DNA of 64,000 nt from Paraburkholderia sp. PGU19 (lineage in GTDB: Bacteria; Pseudomonadota; Gammaproteobacteria; Burkholderiales; Burkholderiaceae), in the NCBI RefSeq assembly GCF_013426915.1, contig NZ_AP023179.1, positions 930,001 through 994,000 on the forward strand, given 5' to 3'. This document shows positions 19,575 to 39,190 of the stretch, one piece after another (positions within the stretch are counted from its first letter, which is position 1; each line of letters opens with the position of its first letter). Under the pieces are notes generated by a model that saw only the letters and a list, made by a program, of their open reading frames with translations, was not told where the DNA came from and made no database searches. Both the position numbers and the translations under genes were made by a program.

Positions 19575-19582
19575 GCCGCCGC

Positions 19583-21056
19583 GTAACTATTCAGCGCTTG
19601 TAAACTGCTACCAGGCTGTGCATAGTGAGGGACATGACGAAGATGCCCGACCTCAAGGACCTGACACCGGAGCAGAAGGACGCACTCATCGTTGATCTGG
19701 TGAGGCGTCTGAACGAGCTCGAGGCAAAGCTTGAGAAGGACAGTCGTAACTCCAGCAAGCCGCCGTCAAGCGATGGTCCAAGGCGCAAGCCGAAGTCATT
19801 GCGCGGCACGAGCGGGGCCAGGCCTGGCGCGCAACCGGGGCACAAGGGCAAGACGCTCAAACGCGTCGCGCAACCCGATCACATCGAGATTCACCCGGTG
19901 GCGCTGGTGTGCGATGCATGTGGCCAACGCATCGCAGCAGCCCGCGTGGCCGTGTTGCCCGAAGGCCGTCAGGTGATCGATTTGCCACCCACGCGCTTTG
20001 AGGTGACCGAGCATCGCGTGCAGATCGCGCAGTGCCGCTGCGGCAAGCATCACTCGGGCGCATTTCCCAAGGGCGTGAGCCAGGCGGTTCAGTACGGCCC
20101 CCAGATTCGCGCCGCAGCCGTCTATCTGACGCAATACCAGCAGTTGCCGGTTGCGCGCACCGCCCAGGCGCTGAAGGACCTGTTTGGTCTGCATGTGGTT
20201 ACGGGAACCGTCCAGCACAGCATTGATCAGGCCGCGCAGTTACTGGTGCCAGCCGTTGAGCAGATCCGGCAGGCGCTACGCGGGCAACCCGTGGTGCATT
20301 TCGATGAGAGCTGCATGCGCGTGGGGCGCGAGTCCCGCTGGCTGCATGTCGCCTCGACGCACGCGTTGAGCTGGTATGGCGCGCACCGCAAGCGCGGCAG
20401 CGAGGCGCTGGACAGCTTCGGCATTCTTCCCGGCTTTAGGGGAGTCGCGGTCCATGACGGCTGGCGGCCGTATGCCGGCTATGAGTGTGAGCATGCGCTG
20501 TGCAATGCTCATCATCTGCGCGAACTGGTGTTTGTCCTGGAGTCCACGCAGCAACGCTGGGCCCAGCAGATGATTGACCTGCTTTGTCAGGCAAAGCGCG
20601 AGGTCGACCTCAGTCAGGCTGCAGGAAACACCGCGCTGAGTCAGGCGCGCCAACGCTATTACACACGGCGCAGCCGCGCCCTGATCGCCCAGGCACGCAA
20701 GCTCAATCCGCAGCAGGCACGTGAGTCCGGGCGCCGGGAACGCCGCGGCAGGATCAGGCAAAGCTTTACCTGCAACCTGCTCACACGGCTTCACAAGTAT
20801 GCCGATGAGGTGTGGCGTTTCATTGCCGATCACCGCGTACCGTTCGACAACAACCAGGCCGAACGCGATATCCGCATGCCCAAACTCAAACAGAAGATCT
20901 CCGGGTGCTTCCGCTCGGAATCGGGTATGGAGGCGTTCTGCACGATCCGCTCCTACCTTGCCACCTTACGCAAGCAGAGCCGTTCGCTGATCGACGCGCT
21001 CGCCCTGGCCTTTACAGGAGTCGTCGTTTCGCCTCTGGTTACCGCTGAATAGTTAC
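19583..21056 (+). mobile_element. IS66-family element (tnpC-only, ISBst12-like), copy 1
   Basis: Complete insertion sequence of 1474 bp. Ends are perfect 14-bp inverted repeats, GTAACTATTCAGCG at the left and its complement at the right; GTAA termini are typical of IS66. An 8-bp direct repeat, GCCGCCGC, flanks it at 19575-19582 and 21057-21064, matching the 8-bp duplication of the family. A single transposase gene fills the element and its stop codon lies within the right inverted repeat. No tnpA or tnpB is present, as in the ISBst12 subgroup. It sits at the centre of a palindrome. Confidence 0.93.
19625..21052 (+). CDS. tnpC: IS66-family transposase TnpC, copy 1
   Basis: Transposase of 475 residues (start GTG at 19625; ATG three codons later also possible). 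The N-terminal part carries a leucine-rich coiled segment and the family signature NSSKPPSSD near residue 42-50, then a zinc-finger-like CDACGQ...CRCGKHH region at about 95-140. The DDE catalytic residues are readable: Asp in VVHFDESCMRVG, Asp in GVAVHDGWRPY, Glu in FDNNQAERDIRMPK. Residue 41 is Arg here and His in copy 2. No frameshift, so the element could be active. Confidence 0.93.
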   Translation: MRDMTKMPDLKDLTPEQKDALIVDLVRRLNELEAKLEKDSRNSSKPPSSDGPRRKPKSLRGTSGARPGAQPGHKGKTLKRVAQPDHIEIHPVALVCDACGQRIAAARVAVLPEGRQVIDLPPTRFEVTEHRVQIAQCRCGKHHSGAFPKGVSQAVQYGPQIRAAAVYLTQYQQLPVARTAQALKDLFGLHVVTGTVQHSIDQAAQLLVPAVEQIRQALRGQPVVHFDESCMRVGRESRWLHVASTHALSWYGAHRKRGSEALDSFGILPGFRGVAVHDGWRPYAGYECEHALCNAHHLRELVFVLESTQQRWAQQMIDLLCQAKREVDLSQAAGNTALSQARQRYYTRRSRALIAQARKLNPQQARESGRRERRGRIRQSFTCNLLTRLHKYADEVWRFIADHRVPFDNNQAERDIRMPKLKQKISGCFRSESGMEAFCTIRSYLATLRKQSRSLIDALALAFTGVVVSPLVTAE

Positions 21057-21576
21057 GCCGCCGCAAAGAAAAGTAGGCAAAAGAAAGCGGCTCACACCGC
21101 CAACATTTCTTCCTGCCTGAGGGCCCCCAACCGGTCTTACGCTTCACACGGCAATCACGTGACCCATGTCCGTTGCCAGCGCTCTTGCGTTGCGCCTCAC
21201 CCGCTTCACGCACCCGCGCTGCACCATGCCGCGCCAGACATTCCTCCGCCGCCCAGGTGGCAAACTGTATGTAGGCCGTGGTGCCTCGCACGCCTCACTC
21301 CGGACCGATAGCGCACGCGTTCCACCCTGTAAGAGCGCCGAGCTATACGCCGCGACAACCTACACACAGTTTGCCACCTGGGCGGCGCAAACCATTCGCT
21401 GCCGCTAGCCCGTGTACGGGTGCTTGAAGTGGGTGAGGTGCCCATTCACCGCGTTAGCAACACGCGCCAACAGAGCCGTTGCCGTGTGAGGCGTAGGACC
21501 GGTTGGGGGCCCTCAGGCAAACACAAGAGTTAGCGGTGTGAGCCGCTTTCTTTTGCCTACTTTTCTTTGCGGCGGC
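21057..21576. repeat. 520-bp non-coding element bounded by 44-bp perfect inverted repeats
   Basis: The segment right of IS copy 1 begins and ends with a perfect 44-bp inverted repeat (21057-21100 and 21533-21576; core GCCGCCGCAAAG ... CTTTGCGGCGGC). Two further internal inverted pairs are present: about 21118-21136 with 21497-21516 (GAGGGCCCCCAACCGGT), and a perfect 22-bp pair at 21247-21268 with 21366-21387 (core CCAGGTGGCAAACTG). The arms nest, so the whole element could fold on itself. Short reading frames inside it are repeat-derived and I do not support them as genes. Confidence 0.8.
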
Positions 21577-21589
21577 AAAGAAAAGTAGG
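21556..21589. repeat. unoccupied IS66 target palindrome
   Basis: Intact palindrome CCTACTTTTCTTT-GCGGCGGC-AAAGAAAAGTAGG. Its 8-bp centre is the reverse complement of the GCCGCCGC target duplication seen at both IS copies, so this is an empty site. Repeat modules (GCCGCCCCGCACAGGGGC, GCGGATGCCAGC) continue to about 21645. The rest of the gap to dsbB shows no gene. Confidence 0.85.
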
Positions 21590-21760
21590 TGCCGCCCCGC
21601 ACAGGGGCGACGCGTGAAGCACGCTAACGAATCGCGGATGCCAGCGCAGAAAAGGCAAGCCGCAAATGCGGGCAAAAAGGCAAGCCGCAGGCCAACACAC
21701 CAACAGAACCGTTGACCATTCAAACCCGCGGTCCGCAGAAAACCCTCAATAAACCCTTTC

Positions 21761-22267
21761 TTACCGCGCGCGGCGATTCCGCCACAGACTAAACGCCAGC
21801 GCGACAAACGCAACAACGAACCCAATCAGCGACCAGCCTGGCAGAGAAATGCCAAAAATCGGCGGATACGGCGTTTCGCACAGACCTGCGACCTTGAACA
21901 CACCCGGCAGCCAGTGAGCGGGAGGCAGACCGTCGACGATCGGCTGCAACGCGTCGAACCCACAACTGAAGTTCGGATGCGACTGCACATACACGTGCCG
22001 GGCGGCCGTCAGAATTCCGCCGAGCGCCGACAAAACCGCGAGCACTTCGAGCAGCCTGACGCCCGTCCAGCCGCGGAATCGCGCGCCGAGAAACGCGAAG
22101 ATCGCGATCAGCAGATAGAAATAGCGCTGGATGATGCACAACGGGCAAGGATCTTCGTGCTCGACGAACTGCAGGTACAGCGCGCCCCCCACAAGCGCGA
22201 GACAGACGAGACCGAGTAGTACGAGCAGACTGCGCTCGCGGCGCAATGTAACGTTGTCGATGATCAT
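21761..22267 (-). CDS. dsbB: disulfide bond formation protein B
   Basis: Inner-membrane quinone reductase of 168 residues that reoxidises DsbA. Four helices are visible. The catalytic pairs are C41 and C44 ([11 protein letters not shown]) and C102 and C130 (SCGFDAL ... AGLCETPYP), positions almost identical to E. coli DsbB. The start ATG overlaps nothing; 97 bp separate it from the amidase stop upstream on the same strand, so it may share that transcript. Downstream lies the repeat region. Confidence 0.95.
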
Positions 22268-22364
22268 GATCCTGCTAGCGGTGGAAGTTCGGTAAAAGGT
22301 GCGGCGATTCTAGCCGAAGCACGCGGCGCATGCCGGTGCCTCCGCAAGCACGACTCCGGGCGTG

Positions 22365-23765
22365 TCAGCGAATCGTATTCAGTACCGCTTCGACGGCCCG
22401 TCCTATTCCCAGCAGCGAGTCGTCCGCGTGCGGCGCGGCGGCCAGCATCAGCCCGACAGGCGCGCCGCCGCGCGGATGACAGGGCAGCGAGATCGCGCAC
22501 GCGTCGAGGAAATTGAACGCGCTCGGGTTGCGCAGCACGAGGCCATTGGCGCGGAAGAACGCCTCGTCGTCATCGACCAGACCGGCTACACGCGGCGGCA
22601 CGATCGGCACCGTCGGCGCGACGACGGCGTCGAAGCGCTGCCACATCGTGCGCGCCTCGGCCAGCACGGCGGCGCGTTCGGCGAGCAGGTCGAGATAGTC
22701 GGCGGCTGTCGCCGGCTGGCCCTTCAGGATGCGCGTGAGCACGCGCGGATCGTACGCGTCGCGCTGGGCTTCGAGCAGCGGCCGGTGCCACGCGTAGGCT
22801 TCGATCGGGGAAAAGCCAAAGCGGTTGATCGTGGCGAGCCGGTCGAGCGGCGCGAACCGCACGTCGCTGACGATCGCGCCCGCCGCCTCCAGATGCTTGA
22901 GCGCGGCGTCGTAGGCCTGTGCGACTTCTGGCTCGATATCGTCCGTGACATAGTGATTCAGCACGCCCAGCCGTACGCCTTCGAGCGGACGGGCGGCGGG
23001 AACGACGGGCTCCAGCCCGGCGAGAATCCGGTCGACCAGCGCGCAGCACGCGACCGTCGCGCCGATCGGGCCGAAGGCGTCGAGCGTCGGCGAGAGCGGC
23101 ACGCCGCCTTGCTTCGGCACGCGGTCGGCGGTCGGCTTGAAGCCTGTCAGGCCGCATAGCGCGGCGGGAATGCGCAGCGAGCCGCCCGTGTCGCTGCCGA
23201 GCGCGACGGCCGCCATGCCGTCCGCCACCGACGCCGCTGCGCCCGACGACGATCCGCCCGACACCCGCTCGTCGCCCTTCACGCCGCGCCGGTAAGGCGA
23301 CAGCGGGTGGCCGTAGTGCGGGTTGAGGCCGAGGCCGGAGAACGCGAACTCGCTCATGTTCGTGCGTCCGACGATCACCGCGCCCGCGCGCTTGAGCCGC
23401 GCGACGGCGGGGGCGTCGGACGTGGCGGGCGCGGCGCCCGCGAGCACTTTCGAGCCGGCGCGCGTCACCTGGCCTTCGATGTCGAACAGGTCCTTCACCG
23501 ACACGGGAATGCCCGCGAGCGGCGATAGCACGGTGCCCGCTGCGCGCAGGCGGTCGTGCGCATCGGCCGTGGCGCGGGCGTTGTCGGCGTCGACCTGCAT
23601 GAAGACGGCCGCGCCCTGGCCGGTGGGATCGGCGATGCGTTCCAGCGCCGCTTCGACGAGCGCGCGGCTGGTGGTGCGGCCAGCAGCGAGATCGGCGGCG
23701 AGCTGGGCGAGCGGCGGGAAGGGCGTTGAATCGGGTGACGCGGCGGGTGACGTGGCGGTGGTCAT
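22365..23765 (-). CDS. amidase (amidase-signature family)
   Basis: Amidase-signature hydrolase of 466 residues. The Ser-cisSer-Lys triad is readable: Lys91 in IPVSVKDLFD, Ser172/173 in the GGSSSG motif, and Ser196 in GSDTGGSLRIP. It is GatA-like in fold but has no gatB or gatC beside it, so it is a stand-alone amidase whose substrate is unknown. Ala/Pro-rich first 20 residues could be disordered. Divergent from the antiporter gene with about 200 bp between. Confidence 0.88.
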   Translation of the reverse strand: MTTATSPAASPDSTPFPPLAQLAADLAAGRTTSRALVEAALERIADPTGQGAAVFMQVDADNARATADAHDRLRAAGTVLSPLAGIPVSVKDLFDIEGQVTRAGSKVLAGAAPATSDAPAVARLKRAGAVIVGRTNMSEFAFSGLGLNPHYGHPLSPYRRGVKGDERVSGGSSSGAAASVADGMAAVALGSDTGGSLRIPAALCGLTGFKPTADRVPKQGGVPLSPTLDAFGPIGATVACCALVDRILAGLEPVVPAARPLEGVRLGVLNHYVTDDIEPEVAQAYDAALKHLEAAGAIVSDVRFAPLDRLATINRFGFSPIEAYAWHRPLLEAQRDAYDPRVLTRILKGQPATAADYLDLLAERAAVLAEARTMWQRFDAVVAPTVPIVPPRVAGLVDDDEAFFRANGLVLRNPSAFNFLDACAISLPCHPRGGAPVGLMLAAAPHADDSLLGIGRAVEAVLNTIR

Positions 23766-23969
23766 GGCGTGAGATCGAAGGTCGGCAGTCGAGAACCGTA
23801 TTGTGACGCGTCAGGCGCAATCGGCGCGAATGCATCGAGACCGCGCGACGCCGCGCGAGTTTCGCCGAAAGCCTGTGTTTGTATCCTTTCTTCGTGCTGC
23901 GCTAAATCGTTTTTAACCGTTCGTGCGTTACCATCGCGTTCTGGATTACTTTTTGTAAGGAATAAGGCT

Positions 23970-25727
23970 ATGCACCACGGTATCGGCTTCATTCAGGATC
24001 TGGCAGTCGTAATGGCGCTTGCCGGCGTCGTTACCGTGCTGTTCCATCGCCTGAAACAGCCGGTGGTGCTCGGCTATATCGCGGCGGGCGTGATCATCGG
24101 GCCGTACACGCCGCCGTTCCAGCTGATCCACGACGAGCAGACCATCCAGACGCTCGGCGAACTCGGCGTCGTGTTCCTGATGTTTTCGCTCGGTCTGGAA
24201 TTCAGTCTGCGCAAGCTCTTCAAGGTCGGCGCGACGGCCATCGTCGCCGCGCTGTCGGAGATCGTGCTGATGCTGTGGATCGGTTACGAGATCGGCAGCG
24301 CGTTCGGCTGGAGTTCGATGGATTCGCTGTTTCTCGGCGCGATCCTCGCTATTTCGTCGACCACCATCATCGTCAAGGCGCTCTCCGAACTGGGCCTCAA
24401 GCGTGAGAGCTTCGCGCAACTGGTGTTCGGCATTCTGATCGTCGAGGACATTCTCGCCATCGCGATGCTGGTGCTGCTGTCGGGTATCGCTCAGACGGGC
24501 GAGTTGTCGGCGGGCGTCGCGTTCGTCACGCTCGGCAAACTGCTGCTGTTCATGACGGTGTCGCTGGTGGTCGGCATTCTCGTCGTGCCGCGCGCGCTCA
24601 ACTACGTCGCGAAGTCGCAGAGTGACGAGATGCTGCTCGTCTCCGTGCTCGGCTTCTGCTTTGCGTTCTGTCTGCTGGTCGTCAAGCTCGATTACAGCAT
24701 CGCGCTCGGCGCGTTCCTGATCGGCGCGATCATGGCCGAGTCGCGTCACCTGCACCGTATCGAGCATCTGATCGCGCCGCTGCGTGACGCGTTTTCGGCG
24801 ATCTTCTTCGTGACCATCGGGCTGATGCTCAACCTGGCCGTGCTGGTCGACTACGCGTGGCCGATCGCCGTCATCACGGTTGCCGTGATTCTCGGCAAGA
24901 TCGTCTCGTGCGGGCTCGGCACGTTCCTCGCGGGCAAGGACGGGCGCACGGCGATGCGCGTCGGCATGACGGTGTCGCAGATCGGCGAGTTCTCGTTCAT
25001 CATCGCGTCGCTCGGCCTCACGCTGAAGGTGACGAGCGCGTTCCTCTATCCGATTGCCGTTGCCGTCTCCGCGCTCACCACGCTTTTCACGCCCTATCTG
25101 ATCCGCGCCGCCGACCCGCTCACGCAGCGCCTCGGCCGCGCGATGCCGCGCACCGTCGCCAACGTGTTCGGCATGTACGGGCAGTGGCTCGGCAGTCTGC
25201 GGCCGGCTTCGGGCGAGCCAACCGTGTTCGGCCTCACGCGTCGGATCATTCTGCAGATCGCGGTCAATCTCGCGATCGTCGCGGCAATTTTTCTGGGTGC
25301 GTCTTATGGAGCGCCTTACGGGAGTGGATTCATTGAGAAATGGCTGCCGTCCGAGCCGATGCAGCGCGTCTTGCTGTGGGGCGCGGCGCTGCTCGTCTCG
25401 CTACCGTTTCTTGTCGCGGTCTACCGGAAGACCAAGTCGCTTGCGCTGTTGCTGGCCGAAATCAGCGTTCAGCCGGCGAAGGCCGGGCGCTTCACGAGCG
25501 CGATCCGCTACGCCATTTCGGACCTCGTACCTGTCGTTTCGATGCTAGGCGTGTTTCTGCTCGTCGCAGCGCTGTCGAGCACGATCCTGCCGCCGACGGG
25601 CCTGCTCGTCGCCGTGCTGGTCGTCGCCGCGCTGCTGCTGGCGCTGCTGTGGCGCTGGTGCGTGCGGATTCACGCGACGATGCAGATCGCGCTGCGCGAA
25701 ACCTTCGACGAGCAGCCCGATCCATGA
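23970..25727 (+). CDS. CPA2-family cation:proton antiporter (KefB/YbaL-like membrane domain)
   Basis: Membrane protein of 585 residues. Start chosen at the ATG after GTAAGGAATAAGG; an in-frame extension upstream is not conserved-looking. The first about 390 residues form the Na+/H+-exchanger domain with repeated helices (VLGYIAAGVIIGP, AILAISSTTIIVKALSELG, ALGAFLIGAIMAESRH, VSQIGEFSFIIASLG). The C-terminal part adds further helices (LAIVAAIFLGASYG, VLLWGAALLVSLPFL, LVPVVSMLGVFLLVAAL) and lacks a visible TrkA/RCK nucleotide-binding domain. It likely exchanges K+ or Na+ for protons. Ion and regulation cannot be read. Confidence 0.87.
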   Translation: MHHGIGFIQDLAVVMALAGVVTVLFHRLKQPVVLGYIAAGVIIGPYTPPFQLIHDEQTIQTLGELGVVFLMFSLGLEFSLRKLFKVGATAIVAALSEIVLMLWIGYEIGSAFGWSSMDSLFLGAILAISSTTIIVKALSELGLKRESFAQLVFGILIVEDILAIAMLVLLSGIAQTGELSAGVAFVTLGKLLLFMTVSLVVGILVVPRALNYVAKSQSDEMLLVSVLGFCFAFCLLVVKLDYSIALGAFLIGAIMAESRHLHRIEHLIAPLRDAFSAIFFVTIGLMLNLAVLVDYAWPIAVITVAVILGKIVSCGLGTFLAGKDGRTAMRVGMTVSQIGEFSFIIASLGLTLKVTSAFLYPIAVAVSALTTLFTPYLIRAADPLTQRLGRAMPRTVANVFGMYGQWLGSLRPASGEPTVFGLTRRIILQIAVNLAIVAAIFLGASYGAPYGSGFIEKWLPSEPMQRVLLWGAALLVSLPFLVAVYRKTKSLALLLAEISVQPAKAGRFTSAIRYAISDLVPVVSMLGVFLLVAALSSTILPPTGLLVAVLVVAALLLALLWRWCVRIHATMQIALRETFDEQPDP

Positions 25728-25887
25728 TGCAGCGCCCCGCGTCGCGCCGATTGAGACACATTCGCGCAAGGTTGCATGTTGTGTCCTGATGTGACGAATT
25801 GTGTGCTGGTTTGCCCCGGTGGGGCGCGAGGCGGATAATGAGACATGTCTAATCGTTCGCGCGCGAAGACGCGTCTGTCAAACAGTC

Positions 25888-27312
25888 ATGAGCGAGAACA
25901 ACTCCGATAACGCTGGCACACCCGGCACACCTTCTCCTTCGATGAGCCAATCCGGCGCAGCCGGGTCGCCATCGTCACCGGCGCCTTCATCGACTCCCTC
26001 GGCGCCGACGCCGACGCCCACTCCAGCACGGGAAGCCAAAGAAGCGGCTTCCACCGATTCCCCCGAAAGCGCCTCCAACGTGACGGCCGAGAGCGCGGCC
26101 GCCGCGCAGCGACGCGACGCCGAACAGGCACGCACGAGCGCTGCGCAGGCTGCCGCGCAACAGGAAGCGGCGGCGCGGGTCCAATCGGTCGTATCGAACG
26201 CGGAACGGGCGGCGGCGACGGCGGCGTCGGCGAACCCGCCAGCCGCGAACGCTGCGTCAGGCACGACGTCCGGTGCGGCGGACGCGGCGGCTAAGGCGCC
26301 TGCGGGCGGCGAGCCGGACGGCACGCTCGGCGCGTCGGCCAAAAAAGACGGCGCGCCGCCGCCGGGCTTCGGCTCGGCACCGGATTTCAGCGCATCCAAT
26401 CCGCCACCCGCGAGCGCCTATCCGCCGGGACCGCCTGCCTATCTGAAGCACAACGATTCGGCGTGGTCCGTGTTCGGACGGGTCATTGCGGCGCACGCGC
26501 GGCAGATTTTCGACCGCGCGGGCCGCAGGATCACACAGCGGACGTTGCGCATTGGCGTGTCGGCGCGGATCTTTCACCCGGAGCCGGGTGCGAAAGGGCT
26601 GCGCGGGAAGACGCTGCAGTATCTGGAAGAGTCGATCGCGCACTGGGTGATGTCGCGCGACGTGCTCGTCTTCATGATTCCGACGGTCGGCCATCAGGGG
26701 ATGCTGCACCCGAGCAACATCCGCCTGCGCGACTATGCGAAGCATCTGGACGGTCTGCTGCTGCAAGGCGGCGCCGACGTGTCGCCGCAGTCGTACGCCG
26801 AGGTGGCGACGCGTCCCGAATGGCCCGGCGATCGCGTGCGCGACATGTACGAACTCGAGCTGCTGCACGAGTTCGTCGAGTCGGGCAAGCCCGTGCTCGG
26901 CGTGTGCCGAGGCTGCCAGCTGATCAACGTCGCGTTCGGCGGCACGCTGTATCAGGACATCGCGACGGATGTGCCGACGGCGGGCGTCCACGTCAACGAG
27001 CATTACGACCAGCATCGACATTCGATTCATTTCCCCGAAGGCTCGACGCTCGTCAACATGTTCCCCGGCCGGCGCGAGGCGATCGTCAACTCGATCCACC
27101 ACCAGGCGGTCAACCAGCTGGGACGCGATCTGAACATCGAGGCAGTGTCGGGGACGGACGGCATCATCGAAGCCGTGCGCTACCGGCGCGCGCCGTTCGT
27201 GATGGGCGTGCAGTGGCACCCTGAGTTCCACCGCGCGGGCGGTCCCGAACTGCTCGATTGCACGCCGTTGCTCGATACGTTCCTGCGGGTCGCGCGCGAA
27301 ACGCGTTTCTGA
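25888..27312 (+). CDS. class I glutamine amidotransferase-like hydrolase (peptidase C26, PuuD-like) with disordered N-terminus
   Basis: Protein of 474 residues. Residues 1 to about 185 are Ser/Pro/Thr/Ala-rich and of low complexity, with no signal peptide. Residues about 218-470 form a gamma-glutamyl hydrolase domain: nucleophile Cys340 in VLGVCRGCQL, then IHHQAVN, and His444/Glu446 in GVQWHPEF. PuuD-type enzymes cleave gamma-glutamyl-GABA in putrescine breakdown, but no other puu gene is near, so the substrate is open. Start ATG at 25888 is preferred over an upstream in-frame codon because the low-complexity tail begins there naturally; SD is weak. Confidence 0.82.
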   Translation: MSENNSDNAGTPGTPSPSMSQSGAAGSPSSPAPSSTPSAPTPTPTPAREAKEAASTDSPESASNVTAESAAAAQRRDAEQARTSAAQAAAQQEAAARVQSVVSNAERAAATAASANPPAANAASGTTSGAADAAAKAPAGGEPDGTLGASAKKDGAPPPGFGSAPDFSASNPPPASAYPPGPPAYLKHNDSAWSVFGRVIAAHARQIFDRAGRRITQRTLRIGVSARIFHPEPGAKGLRGKTLQYLEESIAHWVMSRDVLVFMIPTVGHQGMLHPSNIRLRDYAKHLDGLLLQGGADVSPQSYAEVATRPEWPGDRVRDMYELELLHEFVESGKPVLGVCRGCQLINVAFGGTLYQDIATDVPTAGVHVNEHYDQHRHSIHFPEGSTLVNMFPGRREAIVNSIHHQAVNQLGRDLNIEAVSGTDGIIEAVRYRRAPFVMGVQWHPEFHRAGGPELLDCTPLLDTFLRVARETRF

Positions 27313-28324: not shown

Positions 28325-28378
28325 CGGCGTTTGCCAGGCGGCAACGGAAACGCAGCGTTGTGTTTTCGCGGGAAGGGG

Positions 28379-28421: not shown

Positions 28422-28455
28422 TTTGAGACTGATTTGATTGATCGCCGCTCGCGAC

Positions 28456-30779: not shown

Positions 30780-32081
30780 ATGGCAACTGCATCCCATGCT
30801 CACGTAGCGACGGACGAATCCAAGGTCCGTACCGTATTCCGCGTCGTCAGCGGCAATTTCCTGGAAATGTACGACTTCATGGTCTACGGCTACTACGCCG
30901 CTGCGATCGCGAAGACGTATTTTCCGAGCGGCAATGACTTCGCATCGCTGATGCTGTCGCTGTCGGTGTTCGGCGCGGGCTTCCTGATGCGTCCGCTCGG
31001 CGCGATCGTGCTCGGCGCGTACATCGACCATCACGGCCGTCGCAAGGGCCTGATCCTGACGCTCGCGCTGATGGCGCTCGGTACGCTGACGGTCGCGGCG
31101 ATTCCCGGCTACGCGACGATCGGCGTGCTCGCGCCCGTGCTCGTGCTGCTCGGGCGTCTGCTGCAAGGTTTCTCGGCAGGTGTGGAACTGGGCGGTGTGT
31201 CGGTCTATCTGTCGGAGATCGCGACCAAGGGCAACAAGGGCTTCTATTGTTCGTGGCAATCGGGCAGCCAGCAGGTGGCTGTCGTGTTCGCCGCGCTGAT
31301 CGGCGTAATCCTGAACCGCATGCTGCCTGCCGACCAGATGACGTCCTGGGGCTGGCGCGTGCCGTTCCTGATCGGCTGTCTGATCGTGCCGTTCCTGTTC
31401 ATCATTCGCCGCTCGCTGAAGGAGACGGACGAGTTCCTCGCGAAGAAGCATCGTCCCTCCGTCAGCGAGATTTTCGCGTCGATGCTGCAGAACTGGGGCG
31501 TCGTGCTGGGCGGCATGGGCATGGTCATCATGACGACGGTGTCGTTCTACATGATCACCGCGTACACGCCGACCTTCGGCAAGGAAGTGCTGAAAATGTC
31601 GTCGATCGACACGCTGATCGTCACCGTCTGCATCGGCGTATCGAACCTGGTCTGGCTGCCTGTGTCGGGTGCGATCTCGGACCGCATCGGCCGCCGTCCC
31701 GTGCTGCTGACGTTCACGATCCTCACGATCCTGACGTCGTATCCGGCCGTGCAATGGCTCGTCGCCGATCCGTCGTTCGCGCGCCTGCTGATGGTCGAGC
31801 TGTGGCTGTCGTTCCTGTATGGCTGCTACAACGGCGGCATGGTCGTTGCGCTGACGGAAGTGATGCCGGCCGACGTGCGTACGGCGGGCTTCTCGCTGGC
31901 ATACAGCCTGGCGACGACGATCGGCGGCTTCACGCCCGCTATCGCGACGTACCTGATCCACTCGACGGGCAACAAGGCGGCGCCCGGCCTGTGGATGAGC
32001 GTCGCGGCCGTCTGCGGCCTGATTGCGACGCTCGTGCTGTATCGCACGCCGGAAGCGCGCAACCAGTATCGGACGGCGTAA
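30780..32081 (+). CDS. MFS transporter, MHS family (citrate/tricarballylate-type proton symporter)
   Basis: Twelve-helix symporter of 433 residues. GAGAAGG lies just upstream of the ATG. Family marks: [26 protein letters not shown] in the first helix, the loop 2-3 motif [26 protein letters not shown] in helix 4-5 and [11 protein letters not shown] in the second half. This resembles the proton symporters for citrate and tricarballylate (CitA/TcuC group), so import of a tri- or dicarboxylate is likely. No catabolic genes lie beside it. Followed by a strong terminator. Confidence 0.88.
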
Positions 32082-32131
32082 GCGGTCGGTGCGCGGGGCG
32101 CCAGCCCCGCCTGATTCTGAAGCTGCAAAGC

Positions 32132-32161
32132 AAAACCCCCGCACGCGTGCGGGGGTTTTTA
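32132..32161 (+). terminator. intrinsic terminator after the MHS symporter
   Basis: Stem AAAACCCCCGCACG / CGTGCGGGGGTTTT with almost no loop and a following T-run. Because A- and T-runs flank it on both sides it can also stop the convergent TPR gene. Confidence 0.9.
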
Positions 32162-32190
32162 TTTGATCGACGGCTTCGGCAAAGCGGTGC

Positions 32191-34038
32191 TCAACTGCGT
32201 AATGCCGCCGCAACCTCGTCGACGACGTCTCCCCACGCGCCAGGCCGCGGCTGCCGCACGAGCCGCGCGGACGGGTACCACGGGCTGCGCGTATCGCGTG
32301 TGAACCAGCGCCAGTCGGCGGCGAACGGCAGCATCAGCCAGAGCGGCTTGTCGAGCGCGCCCGCCAGATGGGCGATTGCCGTGTCGACCGACACCACGCC
32401 GTCGAGCCGCTCAATGATCGCCGCCGTATCCGCAAAGTCGCGGATACGCCCATCGAAGCGATGAATGTTCTTCGCGTGCGGATGCGCGTCTAGCGTGGCG
32501 CGTTCGTCGTCGCTCAGCGCGGGCTGCAGCACGATCCAGTCGATGCCGTCGAGCGCGAACAGCGGCTCGAGCGCGGCCAGCGGCAGCGAGCGGTTTTCCT
32601 GACGCTGCGCGCGTCCCGACCACGCAAGTCCGATCTTGCGCTTCGCCTGTCCGCCGAGCGAGCCTCGCCACGCGCGGCGCGCCGCGGCGGGCGCATTCAG
32701 ATACGGTGTGCGCGCCGGAATCGTGTCCAGCTCGGTGCCGAGCGCGAGCGGCAGGCTCAACAGCGGGCATTGCAGGTCGGCGCGGGGCCGCGGCGCGCCT
32801 TGCGCGATCAGCGTGACACGCCATTGCTGCGCCATCGGCTCGAGTAGCGACAGCAACTGCGGCTGCACTTCGAGCACCACACGTGCTGCGCGCTGCGCCA
32901 CCACCTCGACGAATCGGACGAATTGCAGTGTGTCGCCGAAACCCTGTTCGGCGTGCACGAGCAGCGTGCGCCCGGTAATCGGCTCGCCATTCCAGCGCGG
33001 CAGCGGCGTCGCGTCCGACTGTAGCGCCGCGTTTTCCAGCCGCCATTCGTATTCGGGCAGCCCGCGCTTGAAATCGCCGAGCGTGAGCAGCGTTACGCCG
33101 CGATTCATGTGCGCGATGGCTTGATCGGGCCGCAGGCGCAGCGCCTGCTCGAAGGCGCGCAGGGCGGCGTCGTACGCGCCGAGCGCGTGATGCGCGGCGC
33201 CGAGACTCAGCCAGGCAAGCGCGAAGTTCGGATCGAGACCCACGGTGCGCTCGAAGCGCGGCCGGGCCTCTTCGTGACGGCCGAGCGACGCGAGGGCGTT
33301 GCCAAGGCCGAACAGCGCGGGCGGCAGGTTCGACTGCAGCGCGAGCGCGGCTTCGAACTCGGCGACGGCTTCGTGATGCTGTCCCGTCGCGTCGAGCGTA
33401 TTGCCGAGGTTGAAGCGCGCGGCGACGAAGCGCGGCTCGATCTTGAACGCCGCGCGAAAATGCGCGATGGCCTCCTTGGCCGAACCCAGCGCATTGAGCG
33501 CCATGCCGATGTTGTTGTGCGCACCCGCATGGCCGGGCCGCAGTTCGAGCGCGCGGCGGAATGAATCGACGGCTTCGCGGTGCCGGCCGAGCGCGTGCAG
33601 CGCATTGCCGAGATTGACGTGCGACGAGGCGTCCATCGGCTGCAGGCGCAGCGACTTCTCGAACGCGTCGACGGCGTCTTCGTGGCGCCCGGCGAGCGCG
33701 TACGCATTGCCGAGGTTGTAATGCGCCATCGGAAACGCCGGCGCGAGCGTCAGCGCATTGCGAAAGCGTTCGATTGCCTGGTCGAGCCGGCCGAGCGCCT
33801 TCAGCGCGTTGCCGAGGTTCAGCTGCAGCGCGGCGTCCTGCGGGCGCAAATCCGCGGCGCGGCGCACGAGGTCGGCCGCTTCTTCGTGCTGGCCTTGCTG
33901 ATGGCGCAGCACGCCAAGCAGATGCAGCGCATCGACGTGGACGGGATCGAGTTCAAGCGTGGCGCGATAGTCGCGCTCGGCGTCGTCGAGCCGTCCGTCG
34001 CGATGCGCGCTGTAGGCGCGGTCGAATACTGGATGCAT
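32191..34038 (-). CDS. TPR-repeat protein with C-terminal glycosyltransferase-like domain
   Basis: Protein of 615 residues starting at MHPVFDRAYS. Residues 1 to about 340 are ten consecutive 34-residue TPR units (for example LNLGNALKALGRLDQAIERFRNAL). Residues about 365-615 resemble GT9 heptosyltransferase-like proteins: LLVHAEQGFGDTLQFVRFV, RKIGLAWSGRAQRQENRS and VVSVDTAIAHLAGALDKPLWLMLP. Proteins of this plan are common in Burkholderia near surface-polysaccharide or flagellar genes. A protein or glycan glycosyltransferase role is plausible; acceptor unknown. The upstream in-frame extension runs into the neighbouring operator and is rejected. Confidence 0.84.
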   Translation of the reverse strand: MHPVFDRAYSAHRDGRLDDAERDYRATLELDPVHVDALHLLGVLRHQQGQHEEAADLVRRAADLRPQDAALQLNLGNALKALGRLDQAIERFRNALTLAPAFPMAHYNLGNAYALAGRHEDAVDAFEKSLRLQPMDASSHVNLGNALHALGRHREAVDSFRRALELRPGHAGAHNNIGMALNALGSAKEAIAHFRAAFKIEPRFVAARFNLGNTLDATGQHHEAVAEFEAALALQSNLPPALFGLGNALASLGRHEEARPRFERTVGLDPNFALAWLSLGAAHHALGAYDAALRAFEQALRLRPDQAIAHMNRGVTLLTLGDFKRGLPEYEWRLENAALQSDATPLPRWNGEPITGRTLLVHAEQGFGDTLQFVRFVEVVAQRAARVVLEVQPQLLSLLEPMAQQWRVTLIAQGAPRPRADLQCPLLSLPLALGTELDTIPARTPYLNAPAAARRAWRGSLGGQAKRKIGLAWSGRAQRQENRSLPLAALEPLFALDGIDWIVLQPALSDDERATLDAHPHAKNIHRFDGRIRDFADTAAIIERLDGVVSVDTAIAHLAGALDKPLWLMLPFAADWRWFTRDTRSPWYPSARLVRQPRPGAWGDVVDEVAAALRS

Positions 34039-34102
34039 GACGCAGGCGAGGGTGTGAGGCAGGAAAACGCGCATTTTCCCACACTCGGCGCATGCCCCCG
34101 AC

Positions 34103-34151
34103 TTGACGCGGACAGTGTTGTTCAATAACATATGAACACCTGTTCACATGT
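34103..34151 (+). promoter_or_regulatory. promoter and zinc-type ArsR/SmtB operator
   Basis: A -35 box TTGACG (34103-34108) and a -10 box TAACAT (34126-34131) are separated by exactly 17 bp. Over and just after the -10 lies an imperfect 11-2-11 inverted repeat, ACATATGAACA-CC-TGTTCACATGT (34128-34151). This is the 12-2-12-like operator form bound by SmtB/CzrA-type zinc sensors. Bound repressor would cover -10 and +1, so the arsR-type/CDF operon should be autorepressed and derepressed by zinc. Confidence 0.75.
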
Positions 34152-34185
34152 ATGTATCGATGCTGTGTCGATACGGGTGCCCTCC

Positions 34186-34530
34186 ATGTCTACCGCGCTT
34201 TCTCTGAATACCGACGACCGTGTCGTGCAGATCGCCGATCTGTTCCGCCTGCTGGGCGACCCGACGCGCCTGCGCATCGTGCTCGCGTGCGTCGACGAGC
34301 GACGCGCGGTGGGCGCGATCGCCGAATCGTTGAATCTGTCGCCTTCGCTCGTCAGCCACCATCTGCGGCTGTTACGGGCGGCGCGCATCGTGCGCGCGGA
34401 GCGGCAGGGCAAGCAGGTTTTCTACGTCGCCGCCGACGGCCACATCAGCGGCATGCTGACCGACATGCTCGAACACGTCGCCGAACCCGTCAGCGAATCC
34501 GCCGCCGACCTCACGCAGGATCACGCATGA
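34186..34530 (+). CDS. ArsR/SmtB-family zinc-type metal sensor repressor
   Basis: Repressor of 114 residues if started at the ATG at 34186. An ATG at 34132 would sit inside the promoter's operator and is unlikely. The winged-helix core is LFRLLGDPTRLRIVLACV ... AIAESLNLSPSLVSHHLRLLRAARIVRAERQGKQVFYVA. The C-terminal helix has Asp84, His86, His97 and Glu100 with spacing D-x-H-x10-H-x2-E, the alpha5 zinc site of SmtB. No ArsR-type CxC arsenic site is seen. The stop overlaps the CDF start by ATGA. Confidence 0.9.
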   Translation: MSTALSLNTDDRVVQIADLFRLLGDPTRLRIVLACVDERRAVGAIAESLNLSPSLVSHHLRLLRAARIVRAERQGKQVFYVAADGHISGMLTDMLEHVAEPVSESAADLTQDHA

Positions 34531-35594
34531 AATACACCGCTCACACCACCGACGGACCCACGGCGCAGCATCAGCCGAAGTCCGACGCGCATGTCCACAC
34601 GGACGCGTGCAATCACGCGGCGCACGACCACGAACCGCACGAAGCGGGCAACAAGGCGTCGCACGCGCATCATCACGGGGCGGATGGACATCACCACCAC
34701 CATCACGCCCCCGCGTCAGGCCATGGACGCGCGTTCGCGCTCGCCGTCGCGCTGAACGTCACGATCGTCGTCGTGCAGGCGATCTACGGCGTGCTCGCCA
34801 ACTCGACCGCGCTGCTCGCCGACGCCGGACACAATCTCTCCGACGTACTCGGCCTGCTGCTCGCCTGGGGCGCCACCTGGCTCGCGACGCGCCGGCCGTC
34901 CGCGCGCTACACGTTCGGTCTCGGCGGTTCGTCGATCCTCGCGAGCCTGCTCAACGCGGGCCTGCTGCTCTTCGCGTGCGGCGTGATCGTCGCGGAAGCG
35001 GTCGGCAGGCTGTTTCATCCGGCGCCCGTCGCGGGGCTCGACGTATTTATCGTCGCGCTCGTCGGTATGGTTGTGAACGGCTTCTCGGCATGGCTTTTCA
35101 TGCGCGGCCAGGAAGACGACCTGAACATTCGCGGCGCGTTTCTGCATATGGTTGCCGACGCGGCCGTGTCGGCCGCCGTTGCCGTCAGCGGCCTCGCCAT
35201 TCTGTTCAGCGGCTGGACGTGGCTGGACCCGGTGATGAGCATCGTCGTGGTCGCTGTGATCGTCTACGGCACGTGGGGCCTGCTGCGCGATTCCATCAAG
35301 CTCGCGCTCAACGGCGTGCCGCCCGGCGTCGACCTGCAGAAGATTCGCGCGTATCTCGCCGCGCAGCCCGGCGTCACCGACGTGCACGATCTGCATGTGT
35401 GGGCGCTGTCGACGACGGGCAACGCGCTGTCCGCGCATCTCGTGATTCCGGACGGCCATCCGGGCGACATGGTGATCGACGGGATCGTCGGCACGCTGCG
35501 CGCGGAATTCGACATGCACCACGCGACCCTGCAGGTCGACATGGGCACGACGCAGCATCGTTGTTCGCTGGATCGCGCGCCGCACGCGCACTGA
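34527..35594 (+). CDS. cation diffusion facilitator, zinc/cobalt/cadmium efflux (CzcD/ZitB-like)
   Basis: CDF transporter of 355 residues. The first 65 residues are His-rich (up to six His in a row), a metal-collecting tail. Six helices follow. Intramembrane metal-site pairs are readable as DAGHNLSDVLGLL and HMVADAAVSAAVA (HxxxD twice). The C-terminal cytoplasmic domain has VTDVHDLHVWALSTTGNALSAHLVI. It should export Zn2+ in exchange for protons under control of the ArsR-type gene it overlaps. Confidence 0.93.
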   Translation: MKYTAHTTDGPTAQHQPKSDAHVHTDACNHAAHDHEPHEAGNKASHAHHHGADGHHHHHHAPASGHGRAFALAVALNVTIVVVQAIYGVLANSTALLADAGHNLSDVLGLLLAWGATWLATRRPSARYTFGLGGSSILASLLNAGLLLFACGVIVAEAVGRLFHPAPVAGLDVFIVALVGMVVNGFSAWLFMRGQEDDLNIRGAFLHMVADAAVSAAVAVSGLAILFSGWTWLDPVMSIVVVAVIVYGTWGLLRDSIKLALNGVPPGVDLQKIRAYLAAQPGVTDVHDLHVWALSTTGNALSAHLVIPDGHPGDMVIDGIVGTLRAEFDMHHATLQVDMGTTQHRCSLDRAPHAH

Positions 35595-35705
35595 GCGATA
35601 TGTCGCACGGCTGATGCGGGATTGATGCGGCGCGTCGTCGGCCACACGGCAGCGAGCGGAACGCTCGGCGTACACTAGCGAGCATGTCCGACTGCGGAGG
35701 TCTGC

Positions 35706-37433
35706 ATGACGGGTGCTTCCTTCGACGTACCGCCCGTGCTGATCGTCGGCGCGGGGCCGACGGGGCTGGCGGCCGCCATGAGTCTTGCGCGCGCGCAGGT
35801 GCCCGTGCGGCTCATCGACAAGGCGCAGCAAGCGGATCCGCATTCGCGCGCGATCGGCATTCAGGCGCGCACGCTCGAATTGCTGGAGCAACATCGCCTC
35901 GTCGACCGGTTTCTCGAACTCGGTCATCGGGCGCGCACCGCGAATCTGTATTCGAACGGGCAGCGGCTGACGCGGCTCGATTTCGATCCGCTGCAAACGC
36001 GCTATCCGTATCTGCTATTTCTCGATCAGTCCGTCACCGAGCGCCTGCTGACCGAGCATCTCGCGACGTTCGGCGTGCAGGTCGAACGCGGCGTCGAGCT
36101 GACGATGTTCGCGCAGGGCTCGGCGGGCATCAACGCGACGCTGCAACGCGCGGACGGCCATGTCGAGACGCTGCATCCTTCTTACATGATCGCCGCCGAC
36201 GGCGCGCACAGCGCGATCCGTCACCGGCTCGGCATGAGCTTCGCGGGCAAGACCTTCGAGCAGACCTTTCTGCTTGCCGACATCGAAGCGGATACCGGCT
36301 GGTCCGACGACGAGTTTCATATTTTCGCGTCGGGCGCGGGGCTGGCGGCGCTCTTTCCGATGGGCAAGGGCAGACACCGGCTGATTGCCGATCATCCCAC
36401 GATGCCGGCGCGCGAGCCGGCCGAGGCAGCGTCGAGCGGCGACCCGGCGCCGCTTGCGTCGATTCCCGCGCCGACGCTCGACGAATGCCGGCTGATCGCG
36501 AAAAGCCGTATTCACTATCCCGTCGAACTGAGCGACCTGTCGTGGTCCGGCTACTTTCATCTGAATAGCCGCATGGTCGAGCAGTTGCGCGCGCAGCGCG
36601 TGTTCCTGGCGGGCGATTCTGCGCATGTGCACAGTCCTGCGGGCGCGCAGGGGATGAATACGGGCATTCAGGAAGCGTTCAATCTCGGCTGGAAAATCGC
36701 GCGTGTGCTGAAGGGCGACGCGCCCGACCGGCTGCTCGATACCTACCATCTCGAACGTCATCCGATCGAACGCGACGTGCTGCGGCAGACGAGTTTCGTC
36801 ACGCAGATGGCGGAAGCGGACCACGGGCCGCTCAAGCTGCTGCGCGAGCGCGTGATGCCCGTGCTCGCCGCGCTGGGGCCGTTGCGCGATGCCGCGCGTC
36901 TCACCGTCAGCGAACTGTCGATTCAATACCGGCGCTCGCCGCTGACGCTCGAACGCATACTCGACGGCGGGCCGCGTGCGGGCGAACGCGCGCCCGATGC
37001 GCTCGTGCATGTCGTCGATGGACCGTTGGGACGCGCGCCCGGCATCGGCTGCATTTTCGATCTGCACGACCCGGCGTTTTTCTCGCTGTTTCTGCTCGTC
37101 GATCCGCCGGAGGAACCGGGAACGGGTAACGGCAAGATACTGTCGTTGCATCGCAAGCCCGTGCGGGCTGCCGATCTGGACCGGTTCGCCGCTGCCGTCG
37201 AAGATCTGCTGCCGGGTGCGGTGCGCGTGTGGCGCGTGTCGGATGTGAATGGCGAGGGCGGCGGGCCGTCGCTTAGTGAATCGTTTGGGCGTACGCGGCC
37301 TTCGTTTTATCTGGTGCGGCCTGACGGTTATGTTTGCGCGCGCGGGCGCCCGGGCTCTGATTTGAATGGGCTGTTAAGGCATTGCGAGGCATGGTTCGCG
37401 AAAAGTGTGCCGGTCGAGCCGGCGGCGTCGTGA
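35706..37433 (+). CDS. FAD-dependent aromatic monooxygenase (PheA/TfdB/MhpA family)
   Basis: Flavin monooxygenase of 575 residues, ATG with GGAGGT seven bases upstream. FAD motif GAGPTGLAAAMSLA near residue 17, the DG motif ADGAHSAIRHRLG near 165, and the GD motif FLAGDSAHVHSPAGAQGMNTGIQEAFNLGWK near 305. The last 170 residues look like the thioredoxin-like C-terminal domain of the phenol hydroxylase group. It should hydroxylate a phenolic or polycyclic aromatic substrate with NAD(P)H and O2; the substrate is unknown. A single gene, not in an obvious catabolic operon. Confidence 0.87.
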   Translation: MTGASFDVPPVLIVGAGPTGLAAAMSLARAQVPVRLIDKAQQADPHSRAIGIQARTLELLEQHRLVDRFLELGHRARTANLYSNGQRLTRLDFDPLQTRYPYLLFLDQSVTERLLTEHLATFGVQVERGVELTMFAQGSAGINATLQRADGHVETLHPSYMIAADGAHSAIRHRLGMSFAGKTFEQTFLLADIEADTGWSDDEFHIFASGAGLAALFPMGKGRHRLIADHPTMPAREPAEAASSGDPAPLASIPAPTLDECRLIAKSRIHYPVELSDLSWSGYFHLNSRMVEQLRAQRVFLAGDSAHVHSPAGAQGMNTGIQEAFNLGWKIARVLKGDAPDRLLDTYHLERHPIERDVLRQTSFVTQMAEADHGPLKLLRERVMPVLAALGPLRDAARLTVSELSIQYRRSPLTLERILDGGPRAGERAPDALVHVVDGPLGRAPGIGCIFDLHDPAFFSLFLLVDPPEEPGTGNGKILSLHRKPVRAADLDRFAAAVEDLLPGAVRVWRVSDVNGEGGGPSLSESFGRTRPSFYLVRPDGYVCARGRPGSDLNGLLRHCEAWFAKSVPVEPAAS

Positions 37434-37496
37434 TGCTGGAGTTTTTGCTGGCATCAGCGGTTTGGTTTTGCGGTGGTATCCGGGATTTGCTTATGT

Positions 37497-37573
37497 GCTG
37501 GCATCCGCGTTATGCCTACGTGCTTCACGCGTTGCCCCTGTGCGGGGCGGCACCTACTTTTCTTTGCCGCCGC
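37497..37573. repeat. left arm of the palindromic repeat interrupted by IS copy 2
   Basis: Non-coding arm reading GCTGGCATCCGCG ... GTGCTTCACGCG ... CCTACTTTTCTTTGCCGCCGC. It is nearly the exact reverse complement of 39048-39123 on the other side of the IS (one base missing and a few changes), so the pre-insertion site was a palindrome of about 145 bp. Its last eight bases (37566-37573) are the target duplication. Confidence 0.8.
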
Positions 37574-39047
37574 GTAACTATTCAGCGCTTGTAAACTGCT
37601 ACCAGGCTGTGCATAGTGAGGGACATGACGAAGATGCCCGACCTCAAGGACCTGACACCGGAGCAGAAGGACGCACTCATCGTTGATCTGGTGAGGCGTC
37701 TGAACGAGCTCGAGGCAAAGCTTGAGAAGGACAGTCATAACTCCAGCAAGCCGCCGTCAAGCGATGGTCCAAGGCGCAAGCCGAAGTCATTGCGCGGCAC
37801 GAGCGGGGCCAGGCCTGGCGCGCAACCGGGGCACAAGGGCAAGACGCTCAAACGCGTCGCGCAACCCGATCACATCGAGATTCACCCGGTGGCGCTGGTG
37901 TGCGATGCATGTGGCCAACGCATCGCAGCAGCCCGCGTGGCCGTGTTGCCCGAAGGCCGTCAGGTGATCGATTTGCCACCCACGCGCTTTGAGGTGACCG
38001 AGCATCGCGTGCAGATCGCGCAGTGCCGCTGCGGCAAGCATCACTCGGGCGCATTTCCCAAGGGCGTGAGCCAGGCGGTTCAGTACGGCCCCCAGATTCG
38101 CGCCGCAGCCGTCTATCTGACGCAATACCAGCAGTTGCCGGTTGCGCGCACCGCCCAGGCGCTGAAGGACCTGTTTGGTCTGCATGTGGTTACGGGAACC
38201 GTCCAGCACAGCATTGATCAGGCCGCGCAGTTACTGGTGCCAGCCGTTGAGCAGATCCGGCAGGCGCTACGCGGGCAACCCGTGGTGCATTTCGATGAGA
38301 GCTGCATGCGCGTGGGGCGCGAGTCCCGCTGGCTGCATGTCGCCTCGACGCACGCGTTGAGCTGGTATGGCGCGCACCGCAAGCGCGGCAGCGAGGCGCT
38401 GGACAGCTTCGGCATTCTTCCCGGCTTTAGGGGAGTCGCGGTCCATGACGGCTGGCGGCCGTATGCCGGCTATGAGTGTGAGCATGCGCTGTGCAATGCT
38501 CATCATCTGCGCGAACTGGTGTTTGTCCTGGAGTCCACGCAGCAACGCTGGGCCCAGCAGATGATTGACCTGCTTTGCCAGGCAAAGCGCGAGGTCGACC
38601 TCAGTCAGGCTGCAGGAAACACCGCGCTGAGTCAGGCGCGCCAACGCTATTACACACGGCGCAGCCGCGCCCTGATCGCCCAGGCACGCAAGCTCAATCC
38701 GCAGCAGGCACGTGAGTCCGGGCGCCGGGAACGCCGCGGCAGGATCAGGCAAAGCTTTACCTGCAACCTGCTCACACGGCTTCACAAGTATGCCGATGAG
38801 GTGTGGCGTTTCATTGCCGATCACCGCGTACCGTTCGACAACAACCAGGCCGAACGCGATATCCGCATGCCCAAACTCAAACAGAAGATCTCCGGGTGCT
38901 TCCGCTCGGAATCGGGTATGGAGGCGTTCTGCACGATCCGCTCCTACCTTGCCACCTTACGCAAGCAGAGCCGTTCGCTGATCGACGCGCTCGCCCTGGC
39001 CTTTACAGGAGTCGTCGTTTCGCCTCTGGTTACCGCTGAATAGTTAC
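37574..39047 (+). mobile_element. IS66-family element (tnpC-only), copy 2
   Basis: Second 1474-bp copy in the same orientation, with the same 14-bp inverted ends (GTAACTATTCAGCG) and the same 8-bp target duplication GCCGCCGC at 37566-37573 and 39048-39055. By eye it differs from copy 1 at only two places: 37737 (A here, G at 19746) and 38578 (C here, T at 20587). Confidence 0.93.
37616..39043 (+). CDS. tnpC: IS66-family transposase TnpC, copy 2
   Basis: 475-residue transposase identical to copy 1 apart from His41 in place of Arg41, within KDSHNSSKPPSSD. Most IS66 transposases have Asn or a similar small polar residue near this position, so neither form is obviously inactivating. All three DDE residues and the zinc-finger-like cysteines are intact. 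The stop lies in the right inverted repeat. Confidence 0.93.
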   Translation: MRDMTKMPDLKDLTPEQKDALIVDLVRRLNELEAKLEKDSHNSSKPPSSDGPRRKPKSLRGTSGARPGAQPGHKGKTLKRVAQPDHIEIHPVALVCDACGQRIAAARVAVLPEGRQVIDLPPTRFEVTEHRVQIAQCRCGKHHSGAFPKGVSQAVQYGPQIRAAAVYLTQYQQLPVARTAQALKDLFGLHVVTGTVQHSIDQAAQLLVPAVEQIRQALRGQPVVHFDESCMRVGRESRWLHVASTHALSWYGAHRKRGSEALDSFGILPGFRGVAVHDGWRPYAGYECEHALCNAHHLRELVFVLESTQQRWAQQMIDLLCQAKREVDLSQAAGNTALSQARQRYYTRRSRALIAQARKLNPQQARESGRRERRGRIRQSFTCNLLTRLHKYADEVWRFIADHRVPFDNNQAERDIRMPKLKQKISGCFRSESGMEAFCTIRSYLATLRKQSRSLIDALALAFTGVVVSPLVTAE

Positions 39048-39190
39048 GCCGCCGCAAAGAAAAGTAGGTGCCGCCCGCACAGGGGCAACGCGTGAAGCAC
39101 GAAGGCAATACGCGGATGCCAGCGCATAAGCAAACCGCGAATGCCAGCAAAAACACAAGCAAACCACGCAGCGTCGCAGACAACCCCCAA
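39048..39190. repeat. right arm of the palindrome plus repeat modules
   Basis: Mirror of 37497-37573 up to about 39123, then GCGAATGCCAGC and a GCAGCGTCGCAGAC module at about 39168-39181 that also appears inverted at 11141 and 19471. No gene. Lies just downstream of the fdsD stop on the minus strand, so it may hold the end of the fds transcript. Confidence 0.7.

Follow-up and report, generated by a model that had tools for sequence, protein, structure and literature searches.

Whether the transposase of an IS66-family insertion sequence (IS) can single out the center of a genomic palindrome is the question raised by a 64,000-nucleotide stretch of Paraburkholderia sp. PGU19 (the window; bases 930001–994000 of contig C1 in the source genome, G000, which comprises 11.25 Mb in five contigs). 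Two near-identical IS66-family elements of 1474 bp each, copies A and B, lie in the window, and both interrupt the same palindrome at the same position. As judged from sequence comparison, the identity of the target, the base-exact position of insertion, the symmetry of the site, the use of both orientations, the duplication between the arms and the empty form of the copy A site are clear, as is the absence of the trait from more distant relatives. We consider it probable (roughly 0.8) that this is a site-specific IS66/ISBst12-like IS that inserts at the center of an inverted pair of half-sites with the consensus TTCWTT-N8-AAWGAA.

Insertion sites in the source genome and its relatives

Copy A spans positions 19583–21056 and copy B 37574–39047, each bounded by perfect 14-bp terminal inverted repeats, GTAACTATTCAGCG, and each encoding a 475-residue TnpC transposase recognized by family searches (19625–21052 and 37616–39043, respectively). 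Copy A is flanked by 8-bp target-site duplications of GCCGCCGC (19575–19582 on the left and 21057–21064 on the right), outside of which stand the left and right arms of a palindrome, CCTACTTTTCTTT (19562–19574) and AAAGAAAAGTAGG (21065–21077); the corresponding 8-bp duplications of copy B lie at 37566–37573 and 39048–39055, and the arms at 37553–37565 and 39056–39068 (all of these features on the + strand). An earlier model reading of the window from its letters alone, the first-pass annotation, had described these duplications and arms around both copies, and they are found where it placed them. Since GCCGCCGC by itself is common in the window (40 sites versus 26.7 expected), the evidential weight falls on the arms; the arm 13-mer (≤2 mismatches) occurs at 6 sites versus 0.18 expected, a number reached by none of 100 shuffles.

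The complete target is a 34-bp palindrome, CCTACTTTTCTTTGC(CGCC or GGCG)GCAAAGAAAAGTAGG, with 251 uninterrupted copies in G000 (≤3 mismatches) and no match there for its reversed control. As single-stranded DNA it folds (−14.8 and −15.2 kcal/mol; z −7.7 and −8.1) into a 15-bp stem closed by a loop of 4 nt, so that the duplicated 8 bp take in more than the loop, extending two base pairs beyond it in each direction. Insertion had originally been assigned to the apex, or loop, of a hairpin; the central position holds, with 8 bp between the arms, but the strict placement in the loop does not. The transposase has 14 matches in G000, which resolve into nine intact copies and two decayed copies split over five matches, and all 11 copies occupy the exact center of the palindrome. 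The nine intact copies are 99.7–100% identical to each other while their 300-bp flanks are only 38–92% identical, and they therefore represent recent, separate insertion events.

Close copies of the element are found in Paraburkholderia solitsugae, Paraburkholderia polaris and Paraburkholderia caribensis. All copies in G053 (six of six, 91% identity) and G085 (four of four, 94% identity) are two-ended and lie in the palindrome; in copy L153 of G085 the center is a variant, GCCGCGGC, and the duplication matches it. In G047, which carries 87% and 75% subtypes matching the P. solitsugae copies, all three two-ended copies are in variant palindromes, one with an 8-bp repeat, one with a 9-bp repeat (L049, GCCTGCCGC) and one with two different centers. 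Every two-ended copy in these four genomes (24/24) is thus at the center of the palindrome or a variant of it, in line with the hypothesis of the first-pass annotation; another on a P. caribensis replicon (L152), also at a palindrome center, was left uncounted because it may come from the G053 strain itself. Exact direct repeats of 8 bp flank 18 of the 21 copies of G000, G053 and G085, including 9 of the 11 in G000.

Eleven genomes were scanned for the terminal repeat together with the 28 nt lying outside it, which gave 111 hits, reduced to 95 by dropping 16 with a mismatched 13-base end. In the six genomes G000, G053, G085, G017, G047 and G096, with TnpC identity of at least 75% wherever a long TnpC is seen (G017 yields 40-residue pieces only), 84 of the 86 ends lie directly against a member of the dispersed palindrome family, 72 at an offset of 8 and 12 at an offset of 9. 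The hexamer AAWGAA stands at offset 8 or 9 in all 86 ends; in random sequence with the G+C content taken as 63%, any one end would show it at either offset with a probability of ≈3 in 10,000. The 86 ends do not amount to 86 independent events, because each end of an insertion enters the count on its own and many copies in G017, G047 and G096 coincide with assembly breaks. At 9-bp centers, the arm begins after 9 nt in 12 ends and after 8 nt in 3 ends, a hint that the arms may set the cut and with it the length of the duplication; this is suggestive only, because the ends of a single insertion depend on each other and copies do undergo exchange.

The two remaining ends, both in G096 (which matches P. 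polaris), are on contigs that overlap by 261 identical bases and have the duplication GCTGTATG in common, and we therefore take them as one insertion. Its target, GATTCATT-GCTGTATG-AATGAATC, is a perfect palindrome with 8-bp arms that folds weakly (−4.1 kcal/mol) and is unrelated to the dispersed repeat apart from the half-site AAWGAA. No family was recognized among the open reading frames (ORFs) tested beside it, and a porin gene lies ≈260 bases away. This site conforms to TTCWTT-N8-AAWGAA, a motif with 253 sites in G000, 20 in G096, 356 in G053, 309 in G085, 35 in G047, 7 in G017, 12 in G095 and 10 in G458, compared with 0 or 1 site per genome for the reversed control in the same eight genomes; the sites listed resemble palindromes of the dispersed repeat. 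The off-repeat insertion is therefore at one of the few other possible sites, which favors the reading of half-sites over the reading of any hairpin.

The repeat unit, its empty state and its other occupants

Among the 84 of the 251 G000 palindromes that were listed, on which all pairing figures rest, there are 39 left–right pairs and 6 unpaired copies; 34 of the 39 pairs are spaced 386–522 bp apart, 32 of them 510–515 bp, and in every pair the left-hand center reads GCCGCCGC and the right-hand one GCGGCGGC. These pairs usually bound a unit of ≈550 bp consisting of a 478-bp core, with further inverted repeats, and inverted outer arms. In the unit that copy A entered, the left outer arm is at 19485–19561 (−), the core with its internal inverted repeats at 21078–21555 (no strand assigned), the intact partner palindrome at 21556–21589 (no strand assigned; center GCGGCGGC at 21569–21576) and the right outer arm at 21590–21665 (+). 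The empty site with the same arms and a reverse-complement center that had been noticed at 21556–21589 is indeed this partner, 512 bp away in the same unit. The palindrome of copy B has outer arms on both sides, and the 478-bp core is absent. The earlier description of a REP-like (repetitive extragenic palindromic) hairpin accordingly survives as far as a dispersed palindrome is concerned and fails as to a short REP. Relative to the unit core, the transposase points inward in some G000 copies and outward in others, and the flanking 8-mer changes with the orientation of the IS, reading GCCGCCGC or GCGGCGGC.

Within the genus, the palindrome is present in 31 of 58 genomes at 1 to 365 copies each. 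G001 (342 palindromes) and G042 (365 palindromes) have no match to the transposase at E 0.001, and the repeat is therefore independent of the IS. The gene adjoining copy A, dsbB, was used to fetch the locus from ten genomes. G053, G001, G042 and G085 each have an uninterrupted unit next to dsbB, its two palindromes spaced by 512 bp, and the window sequence past the unit aligns on both sides; by this alignment, the four sister loci represent the state that preceded the insertion of copy A. The dsbB loci of G020 and G043 carry palindromes with other centers, and those of G037, G051, G063 and G018 have no palindrome by the patterns used within the stretch fetched.

Several further observations concern the unit itself. 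The ≈550-bp unit (window 19391–21665) is found beside dsbB in several species, and the copies read lack an evident transposase gene of their own. The outer arms give subthreshold matches to Rfam RF02421 (Bp1_684, a predicted Burkholderia small RNA), scoring 40.1 bits at 19485–19572 (−) and 38.5 bits at 21579–21665 (+) against a gathering score of 44, and this family may in part be the outer arm of the repeat unit. Two other Rfam hits, mir-784 and Six3os1, were dismissed as chance matches; a transfer-messenger RNA gene is present elsewhere in the window (48738–49107, −; RF00023, 220 bits).

At locus L175 (G000:C1:1726900–1729500), an IS4-family transposase gene (466 residues; NF033592, 145.8 bits, cut-off 115) lies inside the core, so that the unit has acquired a third type of IS. 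An IS30-family element (356-residue transposase; NF033563, 293–295 bits; G000 loci L174 and L176) occupies the palindrome's outer edge, and the two copies that were read are flanked by AGG on either side. A pattern for its right end gives 12 hits in G000, 2 of which resemble element-free sequence in other genomes and were set aside; of the remaining 10, 8 directly adjoin the palindrome (6 of them at its core side and 2 reading CCTACTTTTC) and 2 lie elsewhere. A single dispersed repeat thus receives insertions from two IS families that are unrelated to each other, IS66 and IS30.

Limits of the trait and competing explanations

A number of observations weigh against a strictly site-specific element. 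Three of the 21 copies (L003 and L011 of G000 and L159 of G085) have flanking 8-mers that are reverse complements of each other; in these, both arms together form a perfect inverted repeat around the IS, as if one arm had been corrected to match its counterpart. Copy L034 of G047 carries two different centers. The complete 67% copy in G095 is inserted at AAACGATC, which has no symmetric arms, despite 12 motif sites in that genome. The 67% copy of G458 (L172) has one readable flank, on the left, that reads GCGGTGGG-CTTGTAAC and is not a palindrome arm; a fifth G458 end also lacks an arm, as do one-sided remnants in G106 and G032. The nine ends outside the six genomes are accordingly at a palindrome in three of five cases in G458, none of two in G095, none of one in G106 and none of one in G032, and the three G458 ends, at the center of a related palindrome, are in stretches where no such TnpC is seen. 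Finally, the known insertions include a single one that lies off the dispersed repeat, and the half-site consensus therefore rests mostly on one repeat family.

More distant relatives delimit the trait further. We scanned 76 loci (75 of 79 TnpC-relative loci plus L155) and kept by eye the 19 whose ends resemble GTAACT and whose 8-bp flanks are equal, the other 57 being dropped for unclear ends or unequal repeats. None of the 19 sites (18 at ≤55% identity and that of G095 at 67%) is palindromic, and a mean of 2.8 of 12 arm positions pair, versus 3.5 in cross-paired controls. The sole dropped row that looked palindromic, L127 (9/12 pairs), has unequal flanks at its GTAACT-type ends, where 5/12 positions pair; L129, L116 and L114 likewise have unequal flanks at such ends, with 6, 7 and 3 of 12 pairs. 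A general palindrome preference of the ISBst12 group is thus ruled out, and the targeting is retained as a trait of one small clade. Insertion mostly into unrelated, nonpalindromic sites, the outcome that the first-pass annotation had named as contrary to its proposal, is not what the six genomes show, although it does describe these distant relatives. In the tree, whose forks are quoted without L172, the six palindrome-users group at 100/99, and addition of the 75% G047 row gives a weak 85/44.

How the center is found can be explained in several ways. In the reading we prefer, two transposase subunits of the strand-transfer complex would each bind an AAWGAA half-site within duplex DNA and cut at the inner edge of that half-site, so that the duplication equals the spacer; the abundant palindrome, with its 251 copies in G000, would then serve as a landing pad between genes. 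Candidates for target reading within TnpC are its N-terminal region and four conserved cysteines (96, 99, 137 and 139). The transposase could instead recognize an extruded hairpin or cruciform and measure from its arms, duplicating the bases enclosed by the arms (8 bp, or 9 bp where the center has 9), an explanation in keeping with the strong folding of the palindrome, with insertion at its axis and with the off-repeat G096 site being a perfect palindrome as well, albeit a weakly folding one. We regard it as unlikely, since that site retains an AAWGAA half-site that a pure reading of structure does not need, and none of the 86 ends falls in the other long inverted repeat of the unit core (CCGCCCAGGTGGCAAACTGTG...), as follows from AAWGAA at offset 8 or 9 in every one. 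In a cruciform, moreover, the two attacked phosphates would be on two separate hairpins. Because AAWGAA is common to the main and off-repeat targets, duplex half-site reading fits better than a folded hairpin; of the palindrome-reading transposase that was originally proposed, the targeting of centers is strongly supported (24/24 two-ended copies, 84/86 ends and a last insertion in another palindrome), and reading of a folded form is the less likely part. Were structure nevertheless what is read, any palindrome of suitable spacing could be made a target of the element. Recruitment by a host protein bound to the palindrome, of a transposase with little sequence preference of its own, would suit a repeat abundant enough in some genomes to be bound and would account for distant transposase relatives that lack the preference. 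It is distinctly unlikely given that insertion is base-precise at the inner arm edge, save for the 8/9-nt variation at 9-bp centers, and that the off-repeat site has only the short half-site in common.

If one old insertion had been copied between units by recombination or gene conversion, the copies would not be independent choices; all targets but one are copies of one repeat family, and the reverse-complement flanks (3/21) and the two-center G047 copy indicate that some exchange of arms or copies happens. As the main cause we reject it as very improbable, because flanks that are 38–92% identical surround G000 elements that are 99.7–100% identical, both orientations are found, the duplications match local center variants (GCCGCGGC in L153, GCCTGCCGC in L049), one insertion is in an unrelated palindrome and the 75% and 87% subtypes of G047 behave alike. 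Random insertion followed by selection for harmless intergenic places is compatible with both window copies lying between genes recognized by family searches, but its likelihood is negligible, and base-level precision leads us to reject it: the center positions number ≈260 (251 empty plus 11 occupied) among 11.25 million bases, or ≈2 in 100,000 for each random insertion, yet all 11 copies occupy one. Half-site recognition by the transposase itself thus remains the explanation that we favor.

The element in the context of known systems

The element belongs to the IS66 family by its transposase, its ends and its duplication. TnpC contains an IS66-type DDE transposase domain (DDE_Tnp_IS66, PF03050, E 6e-49), together with DUF6444 and a weak zf-IS66 match, and scores 307.9 bits against NCBIfam NF033517 (cut-off 180). 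Terminal inverted repeats of the IS66 family typically begin GTAA, and GTAACTATTCAGCG at both element ends is of this type, with a similar start in ISDge4; the 8-bp direct target duplication is that of the 18 of 21 copies noted above, alongside the three with reverse-complement flanks. The accessory genes tnpA and tnpB of a typical IS66 element are lacking, as there is no room for them where tnpC fills 1428 of 1474 bp. A single ORF, here tnpC only, is the mark of the ISBst12 group (PMC12898284). The predicted structure of TnpC (mean predicted local distance difference test score 83.7) consists of a long N-terminal helix (15–43), a poorly predicted stretch and a mixed strand–helix core that we take for an RNase-H-like DDE fold. 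The closest solved fold is that of the ISCth4 transposase in its pre-cleaved and strand-transfer complexes, a loose match (E 1e-6 to 4e-5, template modeling score ≤0.49), and a PDB sequence search with TnpC gave no significant match (best E 0.61).

If the half-site reading is right, the target is unusually clear, an inverted half-site motif almost private to a dispersed repeat. This, together with a 67% relative whose one complete copy ignores the motif, would make the part of an IS66 transposase that sets the target mappable, and would offer a starting point for a small tool, consisting of protein only, for site-specific insertion.

The closest precedents are elements that target REP sequences, listed as REP-specific or REP-preferring in the IS3, IS110, IS4, IS256 and IS5 families (PMC1525189); the available text of that paper contains no occurrence of IS66 by word count. 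The first-pass annotation had cited IS1397 and IS110 members in this connection, correctly: IS1397 and ISKpn1 (IS3) and IS621, ISPpu9, ISPpu10 and ISPa11 (IS110) have REP sequences as specific targets (PMC1525189), but use recombination enzymes other than that of the present element, IS110 elements employing a bridge RNA (PMC11208158). The present element shares with this class specific insertion into dispersed extragenic palindromes (84/86 ends; 11/11 G000 copies), although its target is not a classical short REP, as the palindromes listed mostly bound a ≈550-bp unit. In the REPIN/RAYT system, REP pairs with an associated RAYT transposase are 60–70 bp apart (PMC3390384), as opposed to the ≈512 bp between the palindromes listed here. 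Members of the IS30 family also prefer nearly palindromic hot spots, but belong to a different family, and IS30 itself makes a 2-bp target duplication (PMC9333248).

Palindrome targeting by an IS66-family element is not reported in the literature searched (including the available parts of PMC8024623, PMC3281130 and PMC3189936), which mostly lacks subscription papers, and a search with the arm sequences returned only unrelated human-cell work. Within the ISBst12 group, ISDge4 of Deinococcus geothermalis likewise has a single transposase ORF, ends GTGACTACTCAGCA and GTAACTGCTCAGCA and an 8-bp repeat, but it entered a coding gene at CCTCGATG (PMC12898284), and the word "palindrome" is absent from the available text of that paper. 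The nearest likeness in behavior is ISRm22, an IS4-family element of Sinorhizobium meliloti that is inserted at the palindromy axis of REP elements in 10 of 10 tabulated copies and makes its direct repeat there (Tobes and Pareja 2006, PMC1525189). It differs in its transposase family and its 6-bp direct repeat, and no off-repeat site that defines a half-site is seen for it in the available text. The behavior described here is thus of a known kind, found unreported for the IS66 family and directed at an unusually clean target; if it holds, IS66 would become one of the few transposase families whose insertions strike genomic palindromes at their axis.

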